From the NCBI GenBank assembly GCA_012840135.1, contig DUMA01000023.1, positions 62,001 through 126,000 on the forward strand: a stretch of DNA of 64,000 nucleotides, given 5' to 3'. Shown here one piece after another: positions 2,265 through 23,949 of the stretch. The notes below the pieces were generated by a model. It had not been told where the DNA came from and did no database searches. It saw only the letters and a program-made list of their open reading frames with translations. The stretch's first letter is position 1. Each line of letters opens with the position of its first letter. The stretch is from Thermoanaerobacterales bacterium (GTDB taxonomy: Bacteria > Bacillota > Thermosediminibacteria > Thermosediminibacterales > Tepidanaerobacteraceae). The position numbers were made by a program, and so were the translations under genes.

Positions 2265-4191
2265 ACAGGCAGCCATAGACAGTGAAGAAATATTAAAAAA
2301 AGTGGATAAGGAATCCGATTACAGAAAGCTGAAAGGCTTTTTTGCAAAAATTGTGGCCGCCCTGGCCATCACGTTTTCACTTTTCCAGCTCTATACCGCG
2401 GCGTTCGGAGTCCTGGACGCCATGATTCAAAGGTCCATACACCTGGCCTTTGCCCTCTGCCTCATATTCCTCCTGTACCCCGCCAGAAGTTCATGGCCCC
2501 GGGACAGGATTCATCCGGTGGATTTGATTTTTGCCGTGCTGGGTGCTGCAGTCCCCCTTTATATAGTCGTCTTCTATCAGCAGCTGGTGTTGAGGGCCGG
2601 CACCGTCACCACTCTCGATTATATTATCGGGCTTATCGGAATACTGCTGGTCCTGGATGCAGTCAGGAGGGTGGTGGGATGGCCCATGGTGACGGTGGCA
2701 ACCCTCTTTATAATATATGCCCTCGCCGGCCGTCACATACCCGGCGCTCTTGCCCACAGGGGTATCGATCTTCCGGGCCTTATCCAGCACCAGTTCTATA
2801 CCACCGAAGGACTATTCGGCATACCCATAGGGGTATCTTCGCAATTCATATTCCTGTTCATCCTTTTCGGAGCTTTTTTGGAGAAAACGGGCCTGGGCCA
2901 GTTATTTATAGACCTTGCCAATGCCGTAGCTGGCTGGGCGGCAGGGGGGCCTGCCAAGGTGGCCGTCATTTCCTCGGCCCTGGAAGGCACCGTGTCGGGA
3001 AGCTCGGTGGCCAATACTGCGGGCTCGGGCAGCTTCACCATACCCATGATGAAAAGTCTGGGATACAAGCCCGAATTTGCGGGAGCAGTGGAAGCCACCG
3101 CCTCCACCGGTGGCCAGATCATGCCGCCCATCATGGGAGCCGCGGCATTCCTCATGGCGGAGTTTATCGGCGTTCCGTATCTCAGAATAATTCAGGCCGC
3201 CATAATACCTGCTCTCTTATATTACTTCGGAGTCTGGACCCAGGTGCACTTTGAAGCCAAAAGGCTGGGGCTTCGGGGTATGAAAAAAGAAGAACTGCCA
3301 AAGCTCGGCGTTGTGATTAAAGAAAAGGGTCATCTCCTAATTCCCCTCATCGCTATAATTTACCTCCTGGTGGAAGGCTTTACACCCATGAAGGCCGCCT
3401 TTTACGCCATTATCCTGGCTATTGGTTCTTCGATGCTCCGCAAAAACACCAGAATAAGTTTCATAGATATAGTCAACGGCCTTGAACAGGGGGCCAGGAG
3501 CGCCCTGGGGGTTGTGGCTGCCACGGCCTGCGCCGGCATCATCGTCGGTGTAGTAACTCAAACGGGCCTCGGCCTCAAGCTGGGTTCCACACTGGTGGAT
3601 TTTGCCAACGGCAATCTGTTTTTGACCCTTTTCTTCACCATGATAACTTCGCTCATCCTGGGCATGGGCGTGCCGACGACGGCCAATTATGTCATTACCT
3701 CCACCATTGCCGCACCGGCCCTGATAATGATGAATGTGCCGGTCCTGGCAGCCCATATGTTTGCTTTTTACTTCGGCATCATCGCCGATGTCACACCGCC
3801 GGTGGCCTTGGCGGCCTTCGTTGGGGCCGGCATAGCCCGGGCAAATCCATTGAAGACCGGCATACAGGCATCAAAACTGGCCATTGCGGCATTCCTGGTG
3901 CCCTACGTATTCGTATATCATCCTTCGATGCTTTTGATTAATGTCAATACCTTCGATATTATTGAAATCATAGTCACTTCAATCATCGGAATCATCGGTG
4001 TCGGCAGCGGAGTGTGCGGGTACTTCTTCACAGAACAGTCTTTCCTGGAGCGGATCCTGTTCTTTGCAGGAGGCATTCTCCTGGTGACCCCAGGCATTGA
4101 AACCGACCTGGCAGGCCTCCTCCTTCTCATCATCGGATACTTAATTCAAAAGCATAAAGTATCCAAAAAGAAAGTCCAGGCCGCATCTTAA
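2245..4191 (+). CDS. TRAP transporter permease, fused 4TM/12TM subunits
   Basis: A 648-residue integral membrane protein in which the small (DctQ-like) and large (DctM-like) TRAP subunits are fused, as in TAXI systems. A soluble N-terminus of about 40 residues precedes many hydrophobic segments. The large-subunit part has conserved Gly-rich motifs: VSGSSVANTAGSGSFTIPMM near residue 260 and LGMGVPTTANYVITSTIAAP near residue 475. It would use an ion gradient to import the ligand delivered by the binding protein at 618-1625. The ATG at 2245 lies 12 nt after AAAGGAG and within the end of the DUF1850 gene; an ATG at 2215 is in frame but lacks a Shine-Dalgarno. Confidence 0.93.
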   Translation: MNEKDFEQAAIDSEEILKKVDKESDYRKLKGFFAKIVAALAITFSLFQLYTAAFGVLDAMIQRSIHLAFALCLIFLLYPARSSWPRDRIHPVDLIFAVLGAAVPLYIVVFYQQLVLRAGTVTTLDYIIGLIGILLVLDAVRRVVGWPMVTVATLFIIYALAGRHIPGALAHRGIDLPGLIQHQFYTTEGLFGIPIGVSSQFIFLFILFGAFLEKTGLGQLFIDLANAVAGWAAGGPAKVAVISSALEGTVSGSSVANTAGSGSFTIPMMKSLGYKPEFAGAVEATASTGGQIMPPIMGAAAFLMAEFIGVPYLRIIQAAIIPALLYYFGVWTQVHFEAKRLGLRGMKKEELPKLGVVIKEKGHLLIPLIAIIYLLVEGFTPMKAAFYAIILAIGSSMLRKNTRISFIDIVNGLEQGARSALGVVAATACAGIIVGVVTQTGLGLKLGSTLVDFANGNLFLTLFFTMITSLILGMGVPTTANYVITSTIAAPALIMMNVPVLAAHMFAFYFGIIADVTPPVALAAFVGAGIARANPLKTGIQASKLAIAAFLVPYVFVYHPSMLLINVNTFDIIEIIVTSIIGIIGVGSGVCGYFFTEQSFLERILFFAGGILLVTPGIETDLAGLLLLIIGYLIQKHKVSKKKVQAAS

Positions 4192-9790: not shown

Positions 9791-9827
9791 AAAAAATCTT
9801 CTCAAGTAAAAATACCTGAGAAGATTT
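9791..9827 (-). terminator. terminator of the glycine reductase operon
   Basis: On the minus strand AAATCTTCTCA pairs with TGAGAAGATTT (11 bp, then a mismatch and 3 more pairs), followed by TTTTTT. It lies 24 nt after the grdD stop. Confidence 0.85.
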
Positions 9828-9850: not shown

Positions 9851-11110
9851 TCACAAAATATATCCTTTTAATTTTAATATATTTACCGCCGGTTCTATGT
9901 CTTCCTCCGCCACCAGGATCACGGGCCCCGTGCAGCCCATTCCCGTCTCTGCGTAAATATTGTTTTCCCACAGGGCTCTTGTCGCATCTTCCATCTGAAG
10001 CACATCTATGCCGCTGATTTCTTTCGTGACGAGTTTTCTTGGGGGTGGAACTGTCTCTTTTTTTAATGTGCTATTGGAAATTTCTTCTGCTTTATTAATG
10101 TTGTCGCCTACCTTTTCAGCCCGAAGGATATCATAAAAACCCAAATCCTTCAATATTTGAAATTCTTTATGGATTCTGTCTATCAGGTTTCCCCTCACCA
10201 TCTTTGCAGCGTATTCTATGGCACCTTTGACCACCGGTGCACCGGAAGCCCGGGATATGATCAGGATAATATTGTCCATGCTTTCTCCCACTCCGGGGCC
10301 ATACCCCCAGCCCGCAGCTTCATAGTCTCCGCCGGTGGTGTATGCCGAAAAAATTTTTATCAGGAGATTGCCCGTAAGGGTGTCTGTCACCATAACATCA
10401 CAGGAGCCGGACAAAAGGTCGTTTCCCCTCATGATACACCCACCATCGGCCCTGATGGAACTGGCAAAACAAATCTTATAACCCTTCTCTGCAAGAATTT
10501 TCAAAAGGCGCTCTGCTTGGCGGGCACCGTCGAGATTCAAAATTCCCACTGACGGTTCCAGAAAGCCAAAGGCTTTGGCAGTAATTATGCCGTATATGGC
10601 ATTTTTTACCATAGCCTCTACTCTGTCGGCGGCTGAAGCACCGGTGGTTGTGGAAATAAACATGGGTTTGCCCCTGCCCGGAGTTACAACCCGGCCGACA
10701 GTTGAAATACCCAGCGGAAAATTGTAGTGCATGGTCACAGCCCCATCGATGGCTTTGTCTTCAAGCAAATGTTCCATCTTTTTATGAGCGTCGGAAAGGC
10801 TGTCTGCTGCAATCCCAACTATGCCATCATTTTCCTCCTGGAAATCTCTCGATAAAGCATTCTTTTGATTTTTAGCATTAAACTTATATTCCATTACCTT
10901 GATGTGGTTATCCTTTAAAACTTGAAAAGGCGCCAAAATCACCACTTCAATGTCGCCGTTAGAATTTACCGCATCCACTGAAGCTTTCACCAACATATCC
11001 GGCGGGTGTTCGCTGCCTACGGCAGTTATCCCTATCCTTACATTTCCTTTAGTTTTTTTCTCAATAGCATCGGCCAGGGATGAGAAAAGGTCGACTTTAT
11101 TTAGACCCAT
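9851..11110 (-). CDS. grdD: glycine reductase complex component C, subunit alpha
   Basis: 419 residues. GrdD together with GrdC forms protein C, which takes the carboxymethyl group from selenoprotein A and, with phosphate, releases acetyl phosphate for ATP synthesis. The sequence has a PlsX-like fold with VRIGITAVGSEHPPDMLVKA near the start, GRVVTPGRGKPMFISTTTGA in the middle and the family C-terminus IYAETGMGCTGPVILVAEED, which includes the conserved Cys. The ATG at 11110, preceded by GGGGGAAGGGCG, gives a 14-nt overlap with grdC and indicates translational coupling. Last gene of the operon; a strong terminator follows. Confidence 0.95.
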   Translation of the reverse strand: MGLNKVDLFSSLADAIEKKTKGNVRIGITAVGSEHPPDMLVKASVDAVNSNGDIEVVILAPFQVLKDNHIKVMEYKFNAKNQKNALSRDFQEENDGIVGIAADSLSDAHKKMEHLLEDKAIDGAVTMHYNFPLGISTVGRVVTPGRGKPMFISTTTGASAADRVEAMVKNAIYGIITAKAFGFLEPSVGILNLDGARQAERLLKILAEKGYKICFASSIRADGGCIMRGNDLLSGSCDVMVTDTLTGNLLIKIFSAYTTGGDYEAAGWGYGPGVGESMDNIILIISRASGAPVVKGAIEYAAKMVRGNLIDRIHKEFQILKDLGFYDILRAEKVGDNINKAEEISNSTLKKETVPPPRKLVTKEISGIDVLQMEDATRALWENNIYAETGMGCTGPVILVAEEDIEPAVNILKLKGYIL

Positions 11111-12671
11111 CGCCCTTCCCCCTTGTTTTGAGGAATTCGGCAAATTCCCTGAAGGCTTCCGCCAGGTAGCCGGTGATATCTTCGGTTTGCATGGCCTCTG
11201 AGGCTCCTTCGGCGGCCTTTTTGCCCGGAACAATGCCCCGATTTTTTTCAATGATGAAGGATATTCCATCGAATAAATTCGTCATGCGACCCAGGAAAAG
11301 GCTGCCCTTGCCAATAATCATGGCCCGGGTCATTTTTCCTTCCAGCATCATATCCCTGGCATGGCCGATAAAAGGCACACCTGAGGGAATGTGACCCTGG
11401 GTGGGAGCAAAGCCAGGCATGCCGTGTTTTTCAATAAAAGACTCCATATTTGCCTTTTCAATCTCCCCTCGCCGGACAGCCAGGGCTGCAATCATTTTGA
11501 AATTGGCTCTGGGAACATCGCCTGCCCCGGCAGGCTCGGTAATTTCTGGATTCTGCAGTTCGGGAGCGTATTTGTCCACGTCGGTGGCTTTAAGGCTTAG
11601 CTTATCCAGCGGGTCGAAGACGATGGACTGAATCACCGCCTGGGGCGATGCACCGGTTGCGATAGCATGCTTACCTACGGAATCGGTCCTTACCACGGGA
11701 TTTTTGCCGTCGTTGCTGCTTACCAGCACCCCAAAGCCGCCCAGCATATCTTCCAGGAGGGGGATGCCCTTGTTCACGTGGTCCCTGCCGTTCATGCCAA
11801 GTTTTGCAACGGCTCCGCCGGCCACCACCGCTACATTTTTGAAAATTCCCGCAGATACCAGAGCCGACGCATTGACTATGGCGTGAGCTGGCCCGGCACA
11901 AAAGCCCCTGATATCGGCGCCGGTAGCATTGCCGCAGCCGACAACTTCGCCGATGGCTTTTGCGAAATTACCTCCACCCCTCTGGTTCATATCGCCGCAG
12001 GCCTCTTCGGAGCACTCAATTATGTAGTCGATGTTCTGTGGTGATATGTCGGAGTTCTTTATGAGGTATTTCAATGCCAGCACCGCCGAAGCTTTGGTGA
12101 CAGTATTTTCCAGCATGGTGTGGGCGGACAGGTTTTCATCCCTGTCGTGGGCCTTTTTTACGCATCCCACCAGCCTGCCGCCAAAGTTCAATTCAATGGC
12201 ACCGCTTTCCACCAGCCTGCTGATATTGGCCAGGTCTATTCCTTCTTTTATTCGGGAAAGATCATTTTTTGTTATGAATGGATGCACGGATAGTTTTTCC
12301 TTTACTTGCGCAACAAAACTTTTTTCCAGAACTACAAGGTCGAAGGCGTCTGATATTGCCATAAGGCCGTAAAATTCGTCTTCGGGCATAATTTCGCCGT
12401 AAGGTCCGAAGCGCCGGGCACCCTGCAGCAAATTTTCATACCAGGGTCTTTTATGATTTTTCAGTTCTTCAAGGCTTATATTTCCGATGTAAGCCTGATT
12501 TGGCGGGTAGGCGAGAGCGTCGTTAAAGCTCCTGATATGTGCCGGAGCCCTGCGGAAATACTCCGATTTTTCATTGGATTTTTCCAGAAGCTGTGTGGTG
12601 CCGGCAGCCATCATGATATTTGGAGCATGCACCAGGATGTAACTTGAACCGGATATGACGGGAAAGGTCAA
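11097..12671 (-). CDS. grdC: glycine reductase complex component C, subunit beta
   Basis: About 524 residues, a FabH-like (thiolase-fold) subunit of protein C. It includes NIDYIIECSEEACGDMNQRG, GADIRGFCAGPAHAIVNASA (active-site Cys region) and GMPGFAPTQGHIPSGVPFIG. The TTG at 12671 is selected because AAGGAGG is 8 nt upstream and the protein then begins MTFPVISGSSYILVHAPNI, as in the family. The gene follows grdB after a 161-nt structured spacer, unusually long within this operon, and overlaps grdD. Confidence 0.95.
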   Translation of the reverse strand: MTFPVISGSSYILVHAPNIMMAAGTTQLLEKSNEKSEYFRRAPAHIRSFNDALAYPPNQAYIGNISLEELKNHKRPWYENLLQGARRFGPYGEIMPEDEFYGLMAISDAFDLVVLEKSFVAQVKEKLSVHPFITKNDLSRIKEGIDLANISRLVESGAIELNFGGRLVGCVKKAHDRDENLSAHTMLENTVTKASAVLALKYLIKNSDISPQNIDYIIECSEEACGDMNQRGGGNFAKAIGEVVGCGNATGADIRGFCAGPAHAIVNASALVSAGIFKNVAVVAGGAVAKLGMNGRDHVNKGIPLLEDMLGGFGVLVSSNDGKNPVVRTDSVGKHAIATGASPQAVIQSIVFDPLDKLSLKATDVDKYAPELQNPEITEPAGAGDVPRANFKMIAALAVRRGEIEKANMESFIEKHGMPGFAPTQGHIPSGVPFIGHARDMMLEGKMTRAMIIGKGSLFLGRMTNLFDGISFIIEKNRGIVPGKKAAEGASEAMQTEDITGYLAEAFREFAEFLKTRGKGDGSK

Positions 12672-12728
12672 TTGAAAAACCTCCTTTCTCGAGATTAGAA
12701 GTCGGGGGCTGAAGTTTGAATGGTGATT

Positions 12729-12784
12729 GTGACGGCCTGGCACCTGACCGTTTGGCTTTGCTCTACGGTGCATTTGGCCGTCAC
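12729..12784 (-). repeat. structured spacer hairpin between grdB and grdC
   Basis: A 9-bp perfect stem, GTGACGGCC (12729-12737) with GGCCGTCAC (12776-12784), encloses a second stem GCACC/GGTGC (12740-12744 with 12767-12771). There is no T-run. It lies in the grdB-grdC gap and could set relative expression of protein B and protein C genes by processing or partial termination (inference). Confidence 0.5.
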
Positions 12785-12832
12785 GAACCACAAACGCCGG
12801 AGTTTTTACACCTGTATCAAATCTCTATTTTT

Positions 12833-14173
12833 TCATACGGTAACGACTTTTTTCTCGTGGACCGGCTCATCAAATATCGTTTGTTTATCCACATCGGTCT
12901 TCAGGGCGCGAAGCGCTTTCATTATGAGGCTCCGGCGGAGGTTTTTCTCCTGATCGCAGCTCAAGGCCGGATTCCCAAGAGGATGAGGTATGGCCACTGC
13001 CGGTACTATGCGGTTGGCGCCGACTGTAAGGGATATGGGGACTATCGTACAAATGTGTACCGTCGGAATCCCCGCCCGCTCCAGTTCCTTTACCATCGTT
13101 GCACCGCAACGAGTACAGGTACCTCAGGTTGATGTGAGTATAACCGCCTGGACTCCGTCGGCCACCATTTCCACAGCTATTGATTGGGCAAACTTTCTGG
13201 CGCTGGCCACCGATGTGCCGTTGCCGACCGTGGCGTAGTAGTACCTGTGCAGTTTTCCTATGACTCCTTCCTTTTCAAGGTCGCGCATAACATCCACCGG
13301 CAGCACCCGGTTGGGATTTTCGTTGGCGTAAGTGGGGTCATAGCCGCCATGGGCCGTCTGAAATTCTTTTGAAGTGAGGGATGTCACTCCTTCCAGGTCG
13401 TACTTGCCAAACCTGGAAGCACTGGATGCTTCGATGCGATCCGGATTGCCCCTGGGAACTATCCCCCCAGACGTCACCAGAGCTATGGTGGCTTTGGAAA
13501 GGTCTTTTACCGCAGGTGCGGGTGTTACCCTGTCAAAATCCGGCATGGGATATTCGGTGGCGAAAGGTTCCCCCTTCAATTTTCTTACAAGCATATCCAC
13601 CGCCCGGTAGGCGCCGTTTTCTCCCGTAAATATATTCTTGCGGACTCCCCGGGGAATATAACCTTCCTCGGCCGGCAGGCCTATTTTCTCCCCCCGGACC
13701 AGTTTCAATGCCAGCCTGGCCATCTTCGGCACCGCTTCTCTCATACCCGCAGCCGAATTGGCCGTTTCCACTATATAGATATTTTTCTTGAAAACCTCTA
13801 CCCCGGGGTTCTCGGGAAACATCCCGGTTACTGCAGGAATGGAAAGTTCGTCCATTACGGCTTTGCATACGCTGCCGCAGGCCATGCCGTACCTCCCAGC
13901 ATTGAAGGCCGGTCCGGCAATGAACAGATCCGGATTATATTTTTTAATCCTGGAAAGCACATCAAGCCTGGCCTCGTCCTGGTGCTCATTATAGTATGAA
14001 TCGCCGCAGATGACGGTGCCCACAATTTCCGCTTCTTCACCGAAGGCCATCTTGAAGGCCATGCCCGGACCCACGGGGCCTTCCCTATCCTGAGGCGGCA
14101 CGTCGGCCTTTTCTTCACCGCCTATCTGTCCGAAAAACTGATTTATATAATGGACAACCTTATATTTCCCCAC
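12833..14173 (-). CDS. grdB: glycine reductase component B, selenoprotein subunit gamma
   Basis: 446 residues including selenocysteine at residue 350. The reading frame passes an in-frame TGA (13124-13126) and continues to a TGA at 12833. The TGA is read as Sec in the family motif LTSTUGTCTRCGATMVKE, with the UxxCxxC pattern of GrdB; the sequence after it (VPISLTVGANRIVPAVAIPH) is highly typical and in the same frame. GrdB binds glycine with the GrdE-derived subunits and passes a carboxymethyl group to GrdA. The GTG at 14173 has AAAGGAGG 7 nt upstream. An automated caller would cut the gene at 13124 and leave a false 87-residue gene at 12833-13096. Confidence 0.96.
13097..13111 (-). promoter_or_regulatory. 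SECIS-like hairpin of grdB
   Basis: On the minus strand CGTTGC-GGT-GCAACG, a perfect 6-bp stem, begins 12 nt after the Sec TGA codon. The short stem with a G-containing apical loop just downstream of the UGA matches the position of bacterial SECIS elements recognised by SelB. Confidence 0.65.
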
Positions 14174-14310
14174 AACAGACCCTCCTTTCAAAGAATTAAT
14201 TTAATTTCCAGAATCATTGCGATTTTATTGCCGTCTAACCTCAGGCAATCGGTGCCGGATGTCAGATATACTGTAAGTTAGAGTTGTAATTTGTAGCCCG
14301 CAAATTCCTT

Positions 14311-14342
14311 CTATTCCGACTTTCGGCCTCCGGCTTCTTATT
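14311..14342 (-). repeat. copy of a short dispersed repeat in the grdA-grdB spacer
   Basis: The 32 bases here agree at about 26 positions with 62419-62450, which form the end of lonB. The two copies share CTATTCCGA, TTCGGC and TCC-GCTT blocks on the plus strand. This copy sits in the 230-nt gap between grdB and grdA. Confidence 0.4.
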
Positions 14343-14403
14343 CGAGTGTAAGAGAGAGAAGATACCGGGCCATCTCCGGCAGGAAGGCTACTTTATACTG
14401 AAA

Positions 14404-14874
14404 TTATGCTTTATATTTCGAATACTGCTCCCTGTACTTACTCACTTCTTTAGAAATGGCGTCCACATCCAGCACCATTTCCATCATACCCACCTGTTCG
14501 TCGTAAACTCCTGGATCGACAGCGGCTTTTACTTCGGATTCCAGAATATGATATACCGCCAGGCCGAGGGATACGCCCGACAGGGGGCCGGCAAAGGTGG
14601 GATCGCCATTGGTCACCGTTTCGGCGGCAATTCCGGCGGCTTCCGGCTCGGCTCCGCCCAGGATCACCACGGTATTTTCCGCACCATATTTTTCAGCCAA
14701 ATCTTTAATTCTCTTTTGGATCTCCAGATCCATCGCACCGGCGGCCGTTCAGACGAAGCACTCGGTGGTAGAAAACACCACTTCTCCCTTGGTAGTCTTC
14801 ATGCATGCTTCAATAGCTGGTCCCGGGACACCGTCCCTGTCGCCCACAATGATGATTTTCTTTCCTTCGAACAT
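14404..14874 (-). CDS. grdA: glycine reductase component A, selenoprotein
   Basis: 156 residues with selenocysteine at residue 42. It begins [20 protein letters not shown], continues to [16 protein letters not shown] where U is the in-frame TGA at 14749-14751, and ends at 14404. The CxxU motif (Cys-Phe-Val-Sec) is the redox centre that receives the carboxymethyl group from protein B and is then re-reduced by thioredoxin. The ATG at 14874 has GAGGAATT upstream. A conventional ORF call would begin at the ATG at 14733 and lose the active site. Confidence 0.97.
14717..14732 (-). promoter_or_regulatory. SECIS-like hairpin of grdA
   Basis: On the minus strand TGGATC-TGGA-GATCCA forms a perfect 6-bp stem with a 4-nt loop, 16 nt after the Sec TGA. 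Position and size fit a bacterial SECIS. Confidence 0.6.
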
Positions 14875-14909: not shown

Positions 14910-16193
14910 CTAATAGATCGTCGCACTCATGCGGGTAAAGCCCACTTCCGATGTAGCCCCCGTTATGGCCTGAAGTTCGATTTCAATACTGCCGTCATCC
15001 CTCAGGGATTTCTGAGAGCCGCCAGCGATGATTGTGGCCGTGTCCAGGAGGCCTATGATTTTTTTCATGGGGGGCAGCACTACAACCTCATTGGCATTGC
15101 CAGCCGTCACCACCGCGTCAGCTTTAGCATCGGCATCGGCCAGGGACTGGGAAGCGCCGTCCCTTCCTGCATATTCATCCGTTATTAATACCGTCTTTAT
15201 TCCTTTTTCTTCTATCTTCCTGCAGTTCATGATGAGATCCGTATCCGGATTGCCGAACCCTTCTTCAGTTATGATTACCCCGTCAAGGCCCAGGTATTCA
15301 GCCAGTTTTGCCGTATAATCAGAAGACCGTTCTTTGTCGGCCAGGGTTACGTTTTCGTTAGTTATGATCACGCCCAGGAAGTTGATGTCTTTGCCGTGCC
15401 TCGCATAGAGTTCTTCTATGACCGGGTTGTTCTGGTGCACATAGGTGGTGTTCTTATCACAGGCCGAAACGCAGTTGCCGCTGACTATGGCTCCGTCCAT
15501 GACTTCTGTGGGAAAAATGAGGGTGGGGATGATTTTCTTCGCATCTACACCGTAGACATAGGTATCATGCAGCAGGCCCTGGCTCTGCAGCTGGTAAACA
15601 TAAGCCACTTTGGGCAGCGCCGGGTGTTGAAAAAGGGCTTCGGCGATGGATTTGGTTTCATAGACTCTGGTTTCCTCCGGCTCAAGACTTCTTACGGCCT
15701 CCGCCACATAGGCAGCAGCCTTTAATCCGGCTATCCTCACTGCCTCCTCGTGATCATGAGAATCGAGATTTTCCCTGGGGTGTGCCACCACAACCAGGTT
15801 GAACAATTTTGAAAAGGGAGTATATTCGGCACCGGGGCCTCCCATGTCTATGATGCCTTCCTGAAAGCCCACTATACGGCCACAGGTCACCACCGCCATA
15901 CCTTTTAAAACATGGGTCCTGCCTGAACCTACGGTATGGGGTTTGCCCAGAAACCCCGGAAATACAGTGCCGCCAGACACTTTCACCCTCGGCTCTATGA
16001 CATCCTTTACCGGGATAATCCTTACTTCTTCCCCGGGCTTTGCAATTTCCAGGTCTACGGCTTTAAGCCTGCCATCTTCCAGCAGCACGCCGGAAAGCTC
16101 CTTTTTACTGACGGTTACAATGCCGTCTTTAAATCCTGTTTTATCGCCAAAAATCAGGTCTTTTACGTAAAAATATCCGAGTTCCAGCTTCAA
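14910..16193 (-). CDS. grdE: glycine reductase component B precursor (subunits alpha/beta)
   Basis: 427 residues. GrdE is a proprotein that is cleaved at an Asn-Cys bond; the Cys becomes a pyruvoyl group that forms a Schiff base with glycine. The site is visible as [20 protein letters not shown] with the cleaved Cys at residue 241. The N-terminus [20 protein letters not shown] and C-terminal [18 protein letters not shown] match the family. The TTG at 16193 is preceded by GGAGGG at 8 nt. It lies between trxA and grdA in the operon. Confidence 0.96.
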
Positions 16194-16244: not shown

Positions 16245-16559
16245 TCATATGTTCTTCTCAATCATTTCTTCAACCATTTCAATGGTGACATTTTTTGTGA
16301 CTTCGTCTACTTTCTGCCCGTTTTTGTAAAAAATGAGGGTGGGCAGACTCATGACCTTCTGAGAAATGGCCAGCCTCATGTTTTTGGAAGTATCCAGTTT
16401 GCAGAACTTGACCCTGTCCCCGTATTTTTCGGCAAGCTTTTCTACATGGGGCATCAGAGCCTTGCAGGGCTCGCAGCGGGGTCCCCAGAAGTCCACCAGA
16501 ACCGGTTTTTCGGCTTTCATCACCTCCTCTTCAAAATTTTCAGCAGTAAGTTCAATCAT
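16245..16559 (-). CDS. trxA: thioredoxin of the glycine reductase operon
   Basis: 104 residues, a single thioredoxin fold with active site WGPRCEPCK in place of the usual WCGPCK, plus the cis-Pro loop MSLPTLIFYKNG. It is the first gene after the glycine riboswitch, and thioredoxin re-reduces GrdA during catalysis, so it probably serves glycine reductase. Shine-Dalgarno AAAAGGAGG. No thioredoxin reductase gene is in the window, so the electron supply must come from elsewhere. Confidence 0.93.
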   Translation of the reverse strand: MIELTAENFEEEVMKAEKPVLVDFWGPRCEPCKALMPHVEKLAEKYGDRVKFCKLDTSKNMRLAISQKVMSLPTLIFYKNGQKVDEVTKNVTIEMVEEMIEKNI

Positions 16560-16720
16560 TTATATGACCTCCTTTTACTTAATCTCACATTTTGGTGCTA
16601 AAAGTTCCCACCGGTGGTGTTGATGAGCCCGGTGCCGGATCATGCTTTAGGTTAAGGCAGCTGTACTATTATTCTGCTAACAAATCACGTAAATATCCAC
16701 CGGCAGAGTTTTGGACAAAC

Positions 16721-16756
16721 AAAAAAGAGAAATAAAGGTTTTCAGCCTTTATTTCC
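16721..16756 (-). terminator. intrinsic terminator after the glycine riboswitch
   Basis: On the minus strand AAATAAAGG pairs with CCTTTATTT around a 7-nt loop, then a T-rich run. It follows the second aptamer directly and precedes trxA by about 160 nt, the layout of a transcriptional switch; glycine binding would be expected to prevent termination (inference from the genes controlled). Confidence 0.75.
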
Positions 16757-16921
16757 CTGTTTCTTACCTGAGAGATTCCTTTCCGGCCGGAACCGGAAAT
16801 TTGCTCCTTCGGTGCCTTTCAGCTCTCCAGAGATATGTCTGGATACGGTCCTTTTGCCTGAGAGTTTCATGGCTCCGCCATTTACCCCTTCGGCGCCCTA
16901 TTCAGGGTCTCTCCCGTATCC
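16755..16921 (-). ncRNA. tandem glycine riboswitch (two aptamers)
   Basis: Two successive glycine aptamers are readable on the minus strand. The first (about 16841-16921) is closed by GGATACGG/CCGTATCC and contains GGAGAGACC, GCGCCGAAGGGG and AACTCTCAGGCAAAAGGACC. The second (about 16757-16836) contains CTCTGGAGAGCTG, GCACCGAAGGAGCAA and AATCTCTCAGGTAA. These are the conserved gcvT motif blocks. The switch leads trxA-grdEABCD, so glycine would induce its own reduction. Confidence 0.95.
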
Positions 16922-16950
16922 TTCATTCAAAAATTATTACTTTTAACAAT

Positions 16951-16979
16951 ATTATATTATATTATTCCGCTTCAGGCAA
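16951..16979 (-). promoter_or_regulatory. sigma-A promoter of the trxA-grd operon
   Basis: On the minus strand TTGCCT (16974-16979), a 17-nt spacer and a perfect TATAAT (16951-16956). It starts transcription about 20-25 nt before the first aptamer. Confidence 0.65.
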
Positions 16980-23628: not shown

Positions 23629-23657
23629 AAAATCCCGCCCCCGAAGGGACGAGATTT
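23629..23657 (-). terminator. T-box terminator before ileS
   Basis: On the minus strand AAATCTCGTCCC with a short loop and GGGGCGGGATTT pairs imperfectly, followed by TTTTTG. It is the alternative fold to the T-box antiterminator. Confidence 0.8.
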
Positions 23658-23949
23658 CTCCCGTGTTACCACCCTTATGGATATAAAGCCAGACCCTCTT
23701 TTAAAAGTCCGGTCCTGTTCATATCAAAGACTTTAGCGCTTTACCAATAGCTTTACTTTATATCCTCTTCACAAAAATAACGGCCTTACCGTCGGAACCT
23801 ACTCCATAAGTTTCGGGACCGCACTCCGGGGTGATCTTCAGCCATTGGTATCCTGCGGGGCTTTCACCTTCCCCCGCTCGCTGGGAGGTTTTCCGCCGCC
23901 TACTGTCCCCGTCATCGTTTATCGGATTATTTACTTGTGCTGTTTCTAG
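23629..23949 (-). ncRNA. T-box leader of ileS (specifier AUC, isoleucine)
   Basis: On the minus strand the T-box sequence GGGTGGTAACACGGG lies just before a terminator. An ATC in GAAGATCACC (23833-23835) sits where the specifier codon is expected and matches Ile. Uncharged tRNA-Ile would stabilise the antiterminator and allow ileS transcription. Confidence 0.92.

Follow-up and report, generated by a model that had tools for sequence, protein, structure and literature searches.

The glycine reductase operon trxA-grdEABCD is headed by a tandem glycine riboswitch that very probably, at roughly 93% by our estimate, serves as its transcriptional ON switch. The analysed DNA, referred to here as the window, is a stretch of 64,000 nucleotides. 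On its minus strand lie, in order, a promoter, aptamer 1, aptamer 2, a terminator and the genes trxA, grdE, grdA, grdB, grdC and grdD. A first-pass annotation had placed two aptamers and then a terminator before trxA-grdEABCD, and both elements were recovered where it had put them, as two matches to the glycine riboswitch family RF00504 and a 13-pair hairpin.

The putative sigma-A promoter (16951..16979, minus strand) combines a -35 box, TTGCCT (16979-16974), that matches the consensus at four of six positions with a 17-nt spacer and a -10 box, TATAAT (16956-16951). This -10 is perfect, as the annotation had noted. Promoter-like matches of equal quality are expected by chance about once per 1.1 kb. 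TTGCCT-17-TATAAT is also found in a genome of the same genus (G001, locus L112) and in locus L005, and TTGCCT-17-TAAAAT in Fervidicola (L006); because of this recurrence we call the promoter conserved. Placed from it, the transcription start would lie near 16944. The complete leader folds with a z score of -3.07, and no shuffled sequence folded as well.

Aptamer 1 (16836..16926, minus strand; P1a at 16921-16914 / 16848-16841) was detected in an Rfam scan of the whole window, scoring 74.8 bits (E 8e-14) against RF00504, whose gathering score is 32 bits. Aptamer 2 (16747..16840, minus strand) was absent from the initial whole-window list and was recovered at 47.6 bits in a search of the organism's own genome and in a focused scan. 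The annotation had proposed an Rfam search as a check, and both aptamers pass it. Aptamer 2 further scores 79.3 bits (E 1e-20) against a grd aptamer-2 model built with this sequence included. Among 64 grd aptamer-1 rows 33 columns are conserved, and aptamer 1 agrees with every one of them; aptamer 2 likewise agrees with 33 of 33 conserved columns of the grd aptamer-2 rows. Across 99 aptamer sequences, in an alignment fitted to the model structure, 94.2% of cells are paired and covariation is 0.576, compared with 0.167 when shuffled and about 0.1 when slid. Placed at 16926-16836 and 16836-16750 with the grd aptamer models, the aptamers are adjacent, joined by a short linker and followed by a single terminator as expression platform, which is the tandem arrangement. 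Judged from its sequence, the leader RNA belongs to the ordinary glycine riboswitch family RF00504, in tandem form, with glycine as the presumed ligand.

The tandem region also matches RF03166, the variant glycine-GGAnGA family, at 90.6 bits, and the aptamers might on that basis recognize some other ligand. This score falls below the RF03166 gathering score of 110, and membership of the variant family was rejected. Both aptamers instead score above the cut-off of RF00504 and have canonical core residues, and the operon they precede is of the glycine type (see below). A ligand other than glycine is thus extremely improbable. In the RF03166 alignment, the positions aligned to the leader-linker kink turn (P0) keep two of three pairs.

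The proposed switch centers on P1b, the closing helix of aptamer 2, as given by the pairs of the grd aptamer-2 model. Its 5' strand, UCUCUG (16828..16833, minus strand), pairs with the 3' strand CAGGGA (16754..16759, minus strand). The intrinsic terminator (16726..16758, minus strand) has 13 pairs and reads AGGGAAATAAAGG-ctgaaaa-CCTTTATTTCTCT followed by TTTTTTG (16725-16719); with its flanks it folds at -16 kcal/mol (z -3.55). Its 5' arm (16758-16746) overlaps the P1b 3' strand (16759-16754) by five bases. Since the P1b 3' strand is the base of this arm, P1b and the terminator are mutually exclusive. The annotation had described the second aptamer as abutting the terminator arm; the contact is real, but the description understates it, as the P1b 3' strand sits within the 5' arm. 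The helix that a ligand would stabilize therefore excludes the intrinsic terminator, as in a transcriptional ON riboswitch.

Folding predictions are consistent with this competition. When either structure is forced in the absence of ligand, the terminator fold reaches -70.7 kcal/mol and the P1b fold -65.2 kcal/mol, a preference of 5.5 kcal/mol for the terminator in energies that leave out tertiary contacts and ligand. Folded as a growing chain, the RNA contains P1b while its 3' end lies between 16754 and 16733 and has lost it at 16726. With P1b held, the residual hairpin is a weak one of 8 pairs, set back from the U tract, so glycine should raise read-through.

From these elements we propose the following pathway. 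Transcription would begin near 16944 and both aptamers would fold, with P1b forming once 16754 has been transcribed. With glycine bound, the docked aptamers would hold P1b and withhold its 3' strand from the terminator. Only the weak hairpin could then form, and polymerase would continue to the terminator after grdD. When glycine is scarce, the 13-pair terminator would displace P1b and transcription would stop near 16719. No separate antiterminator would be involved. In this way glycine would turn on the enzymes that reduce it and, with them, the thioredoxin serving the selenoenzyme.

The opposite direction, in which glycine binding favors termination, has precedent in the glycine riboswitches of transporter genes, for which a review records OFF switching (PMC11477304). 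Such a design is very unlikely here. A separate antiterminator is neither needed nor seen; the aptamer helix P1b competes with the terminator directly, and ligand should therefore stabilize read-through. The target genes are also catabolic, and transcription of grd in C. difficile goes up with glycine (PMC11477304). The ON switch, as the annotation had it, fits the Rfam identity of the aptamers, the exclusivity of P1b and the terminator, and the conservation of the design in dozens of operons.

The genes behind the switch, all on the minus strand, begin with trxA (16245..16559; ribosome-binding site GGAGG at 16568..16572). It encodes a grd-type thioredoxin with the active site CEPC, a clostridial TrxA by its NCBIfam model (NF047697, 155.5 bits, cut-off 140), which supports the annotation's description of a dedicated thioredoxin. 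grdE (14910..16193), for the glycine reductase protein B alpha subunit, was assigned from homologues; its nearest model is NF040793, for GrdG, and it scores below the exception cut-off of that model. grdA (14404..14874) encodes selenoprotein A, with UGA as Sec in CFVUTAAG (NF040748, 269.6 bits, cut-off 130), and grdB (12833..14191) a glycine-type selenoprotein B (TIGR01917, 699.6 bits, cut-off 602.2). One UGA is read through in each of GrdA and GrdB, and the Rfam scan placed a SECIS_4 element (13123-13086, minus strand) after that of grdB. The operon ends with grdC (11097..12791; component C beta, NF040746, 785.6 bits) and grdD (9851..11269; component C alpha, NF040747, 509.7 bits), both with real starts downstream of their ORF starts. 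The only thioredoxin reductase in the genome that scores above cut-off sits elsewhere (C26). Also on the minus strand of the window, a T-box leader (23642-23924, 107 bits) lies immediately upstream of ileS (23629-20462).

GrdB scores below the exception cut-offs of both the GrdF model (703.6 against 800) and the GrdH model (570.5 against 775), and a sarcosine or betaine reductase was rejected on these grounds. As its GrdB exceeds the TIGR01917 cut-off and falls short of the other two, the operon is classed by protein models as a glycine-type reductase. No other protein in the genome matches TIGR01917. No strong or convincing terminator was found in the interval from trxA to grdD, and an intrinsic terminator of 15 pairs (9794..9827, minus strand) closes the operon just past grdD. 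Together with the glycine-type GrdB, this agrees with the annotation's view that the entire operon is the target, and a single transcript would be expected to span it. An NMT1-type ABC transporter lies downstream; it was rejected as an operon member because the strong terminator at 9827-9794 stands between. The 212-nt gap between grdA and grdB (14192-14403, minus strand) holds a weak terminator-like hairpin (14381-14363) with the tail TCTTCTCTCT; transcription could conceivably start, or the RNA be processed, within this gap.

To place this leader among its relatives, a GrdE scan yielded 80 loci from other species, which are non-independent and chosen by GrdE similarity, and these were scanned with separate covariance models for aptamer 1 and aptamer 2. 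A glycine riboswitch stands at the operon head in 62 of the 80 grdE loci, as a tandem in 51 and as a single aptamer in 11, C. difficile (L075) among the latter. The annotation had regarded the grd context as unusual; it is both frequent in these loci and already published for C. difficile (PMC11477304, PMC10880999). Among loci with the operon head in view the figure is 62 of about 68, again in a non-independent, GrdE-selected set. The head gene differs (grdX, trxB, trxA or another short ORF), and the RNA is constantly at the head. The terminator 5' arm uses bases of the P1b 3' strand in 50 of the 51 tandem loci by script and in the last (L022) by eye. The 11 single-aptamer loci have an equivalent design, also judged by eye, via a ghost helix like CUCUG/CAGAG.

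Eighteen loci gave no riboswitch. Twelve lie no more than about 2.2 kb from a contig edge; the L004 contig begins within the terminator itself, and that of L007 begins with unrelated sequence. The other six (L013, L028, L031, L035, L052 and L071), which include operons of Spirochaetota and Cetobacterium, have enough upstream DNA and are truly without one. In full-length loci without matches, scans with both models and filters off gave at most 15 bits, which is chance level, and diverged, hidden riboswitches were rejected for these loci. Two ACCGAAGG motifs near the expected site in L052 and L013 were likewise dismissed, having no CTCTCAGG partner and no surrounding aptamer.

Conservation also bears on whether the leader might have decayed, the RNA being present but non-regulating and expression being set by another promoter or factor. 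The weak -35 box and the 212-nt gap between grdA and grdB would suit such a leader. Against it, all core columns, the exclusive helices and the promoter are conserved in relatives, and the same-genus genome G001 (L112) keeps the promoter, both aptamers, the terminator and the genes. A decayed or constitutive leader is scarcely credible on this evidence.

The closest known counterpart of the proposed ON switch is the C. difficile grd operon (CD2357-48). A review of riboswitches in that species lists grd as one of three glycine riboswitch targets (PMC11477304), and a thioredoxin study describes the grd glycine riboswitch, induction by glycine and an atypical grd-associated thioredoxin (PMC10880999). 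The two systems share the ligand family, a target operon with its dedicated thioredoxin, and a terminator platform. They differ in that a single aptamer, accompanied by a ghost helix, was detected in C. difficile, whereas two aptamers are present here. Gene order differs as well, being grdX-trxB-trxA-grdE in C. difficile; here, as throughout the clade of this operon with L005, L006, L008 and L112, trxA comes first and grdX and trxB are missing.

The B. subtilis gcvT leader, a studied tandem glycine ON switch with a terminator (PMC5666159), likewise has two aptamers and one intrinsic terminator and turns on glycine catabolism, but there the pathway is the oxidative cleavage of glycine, not its reduction. 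The third glycine aptamer of the present genome (L002, C19:173092-173219) also precedes gcvT. It belongs to the same family and has its closing helix near a terminator; in contrast to the grd leader, it is a single aptamer with a ghost helix and serves the oxidative pathway. The genome thus has both its oxidative (single) and its reductive (tandem) glycine routes behind glycine riboswitches.

In two large comparative papers (PMC6944388, PMC3766115), the main text deals with gcv, with transporters and with further genes of glycine or serine but leaves glycine reductase unmentioned; grd may nevertheless have been listed before. The new point is modest: across the surveyed sequences, the grd context appears general and uniform in Clostridia. 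We somewhat favor the broader view that grd is a third broad context for glycine riboswitches besides gcv and transporters, and that they usually control glycine reductase in Clostridia, through one fixed device pitting P1b (CUCUG/CAGAG) against the terminator, whatever the first gene and with one or two aptamers. The proposed switch would tie energy-yielding glycine reduction, with its selenoenzymes and thioredoxin, directly to the glycine level through RNA, in a clostridial organism only distantly related to C. difficile, where the known case lies. The 62 operons, which combine a fixed platform with either one aptamer or two, offer a system for asking why tandem aptamers persist or vanish. 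In Syntrophomonas sp. DTU018 (L080), two tandem glycine arrays lie upstream of grdE, at 169-347 and 3614-3795, about 3.3 kb apart. In several Clostridium grd copies (L066, L068, L069, L076, L078 and L043), the aptamer 1 match spans about 167-181 nt compared with about 100, which implies a long insert.
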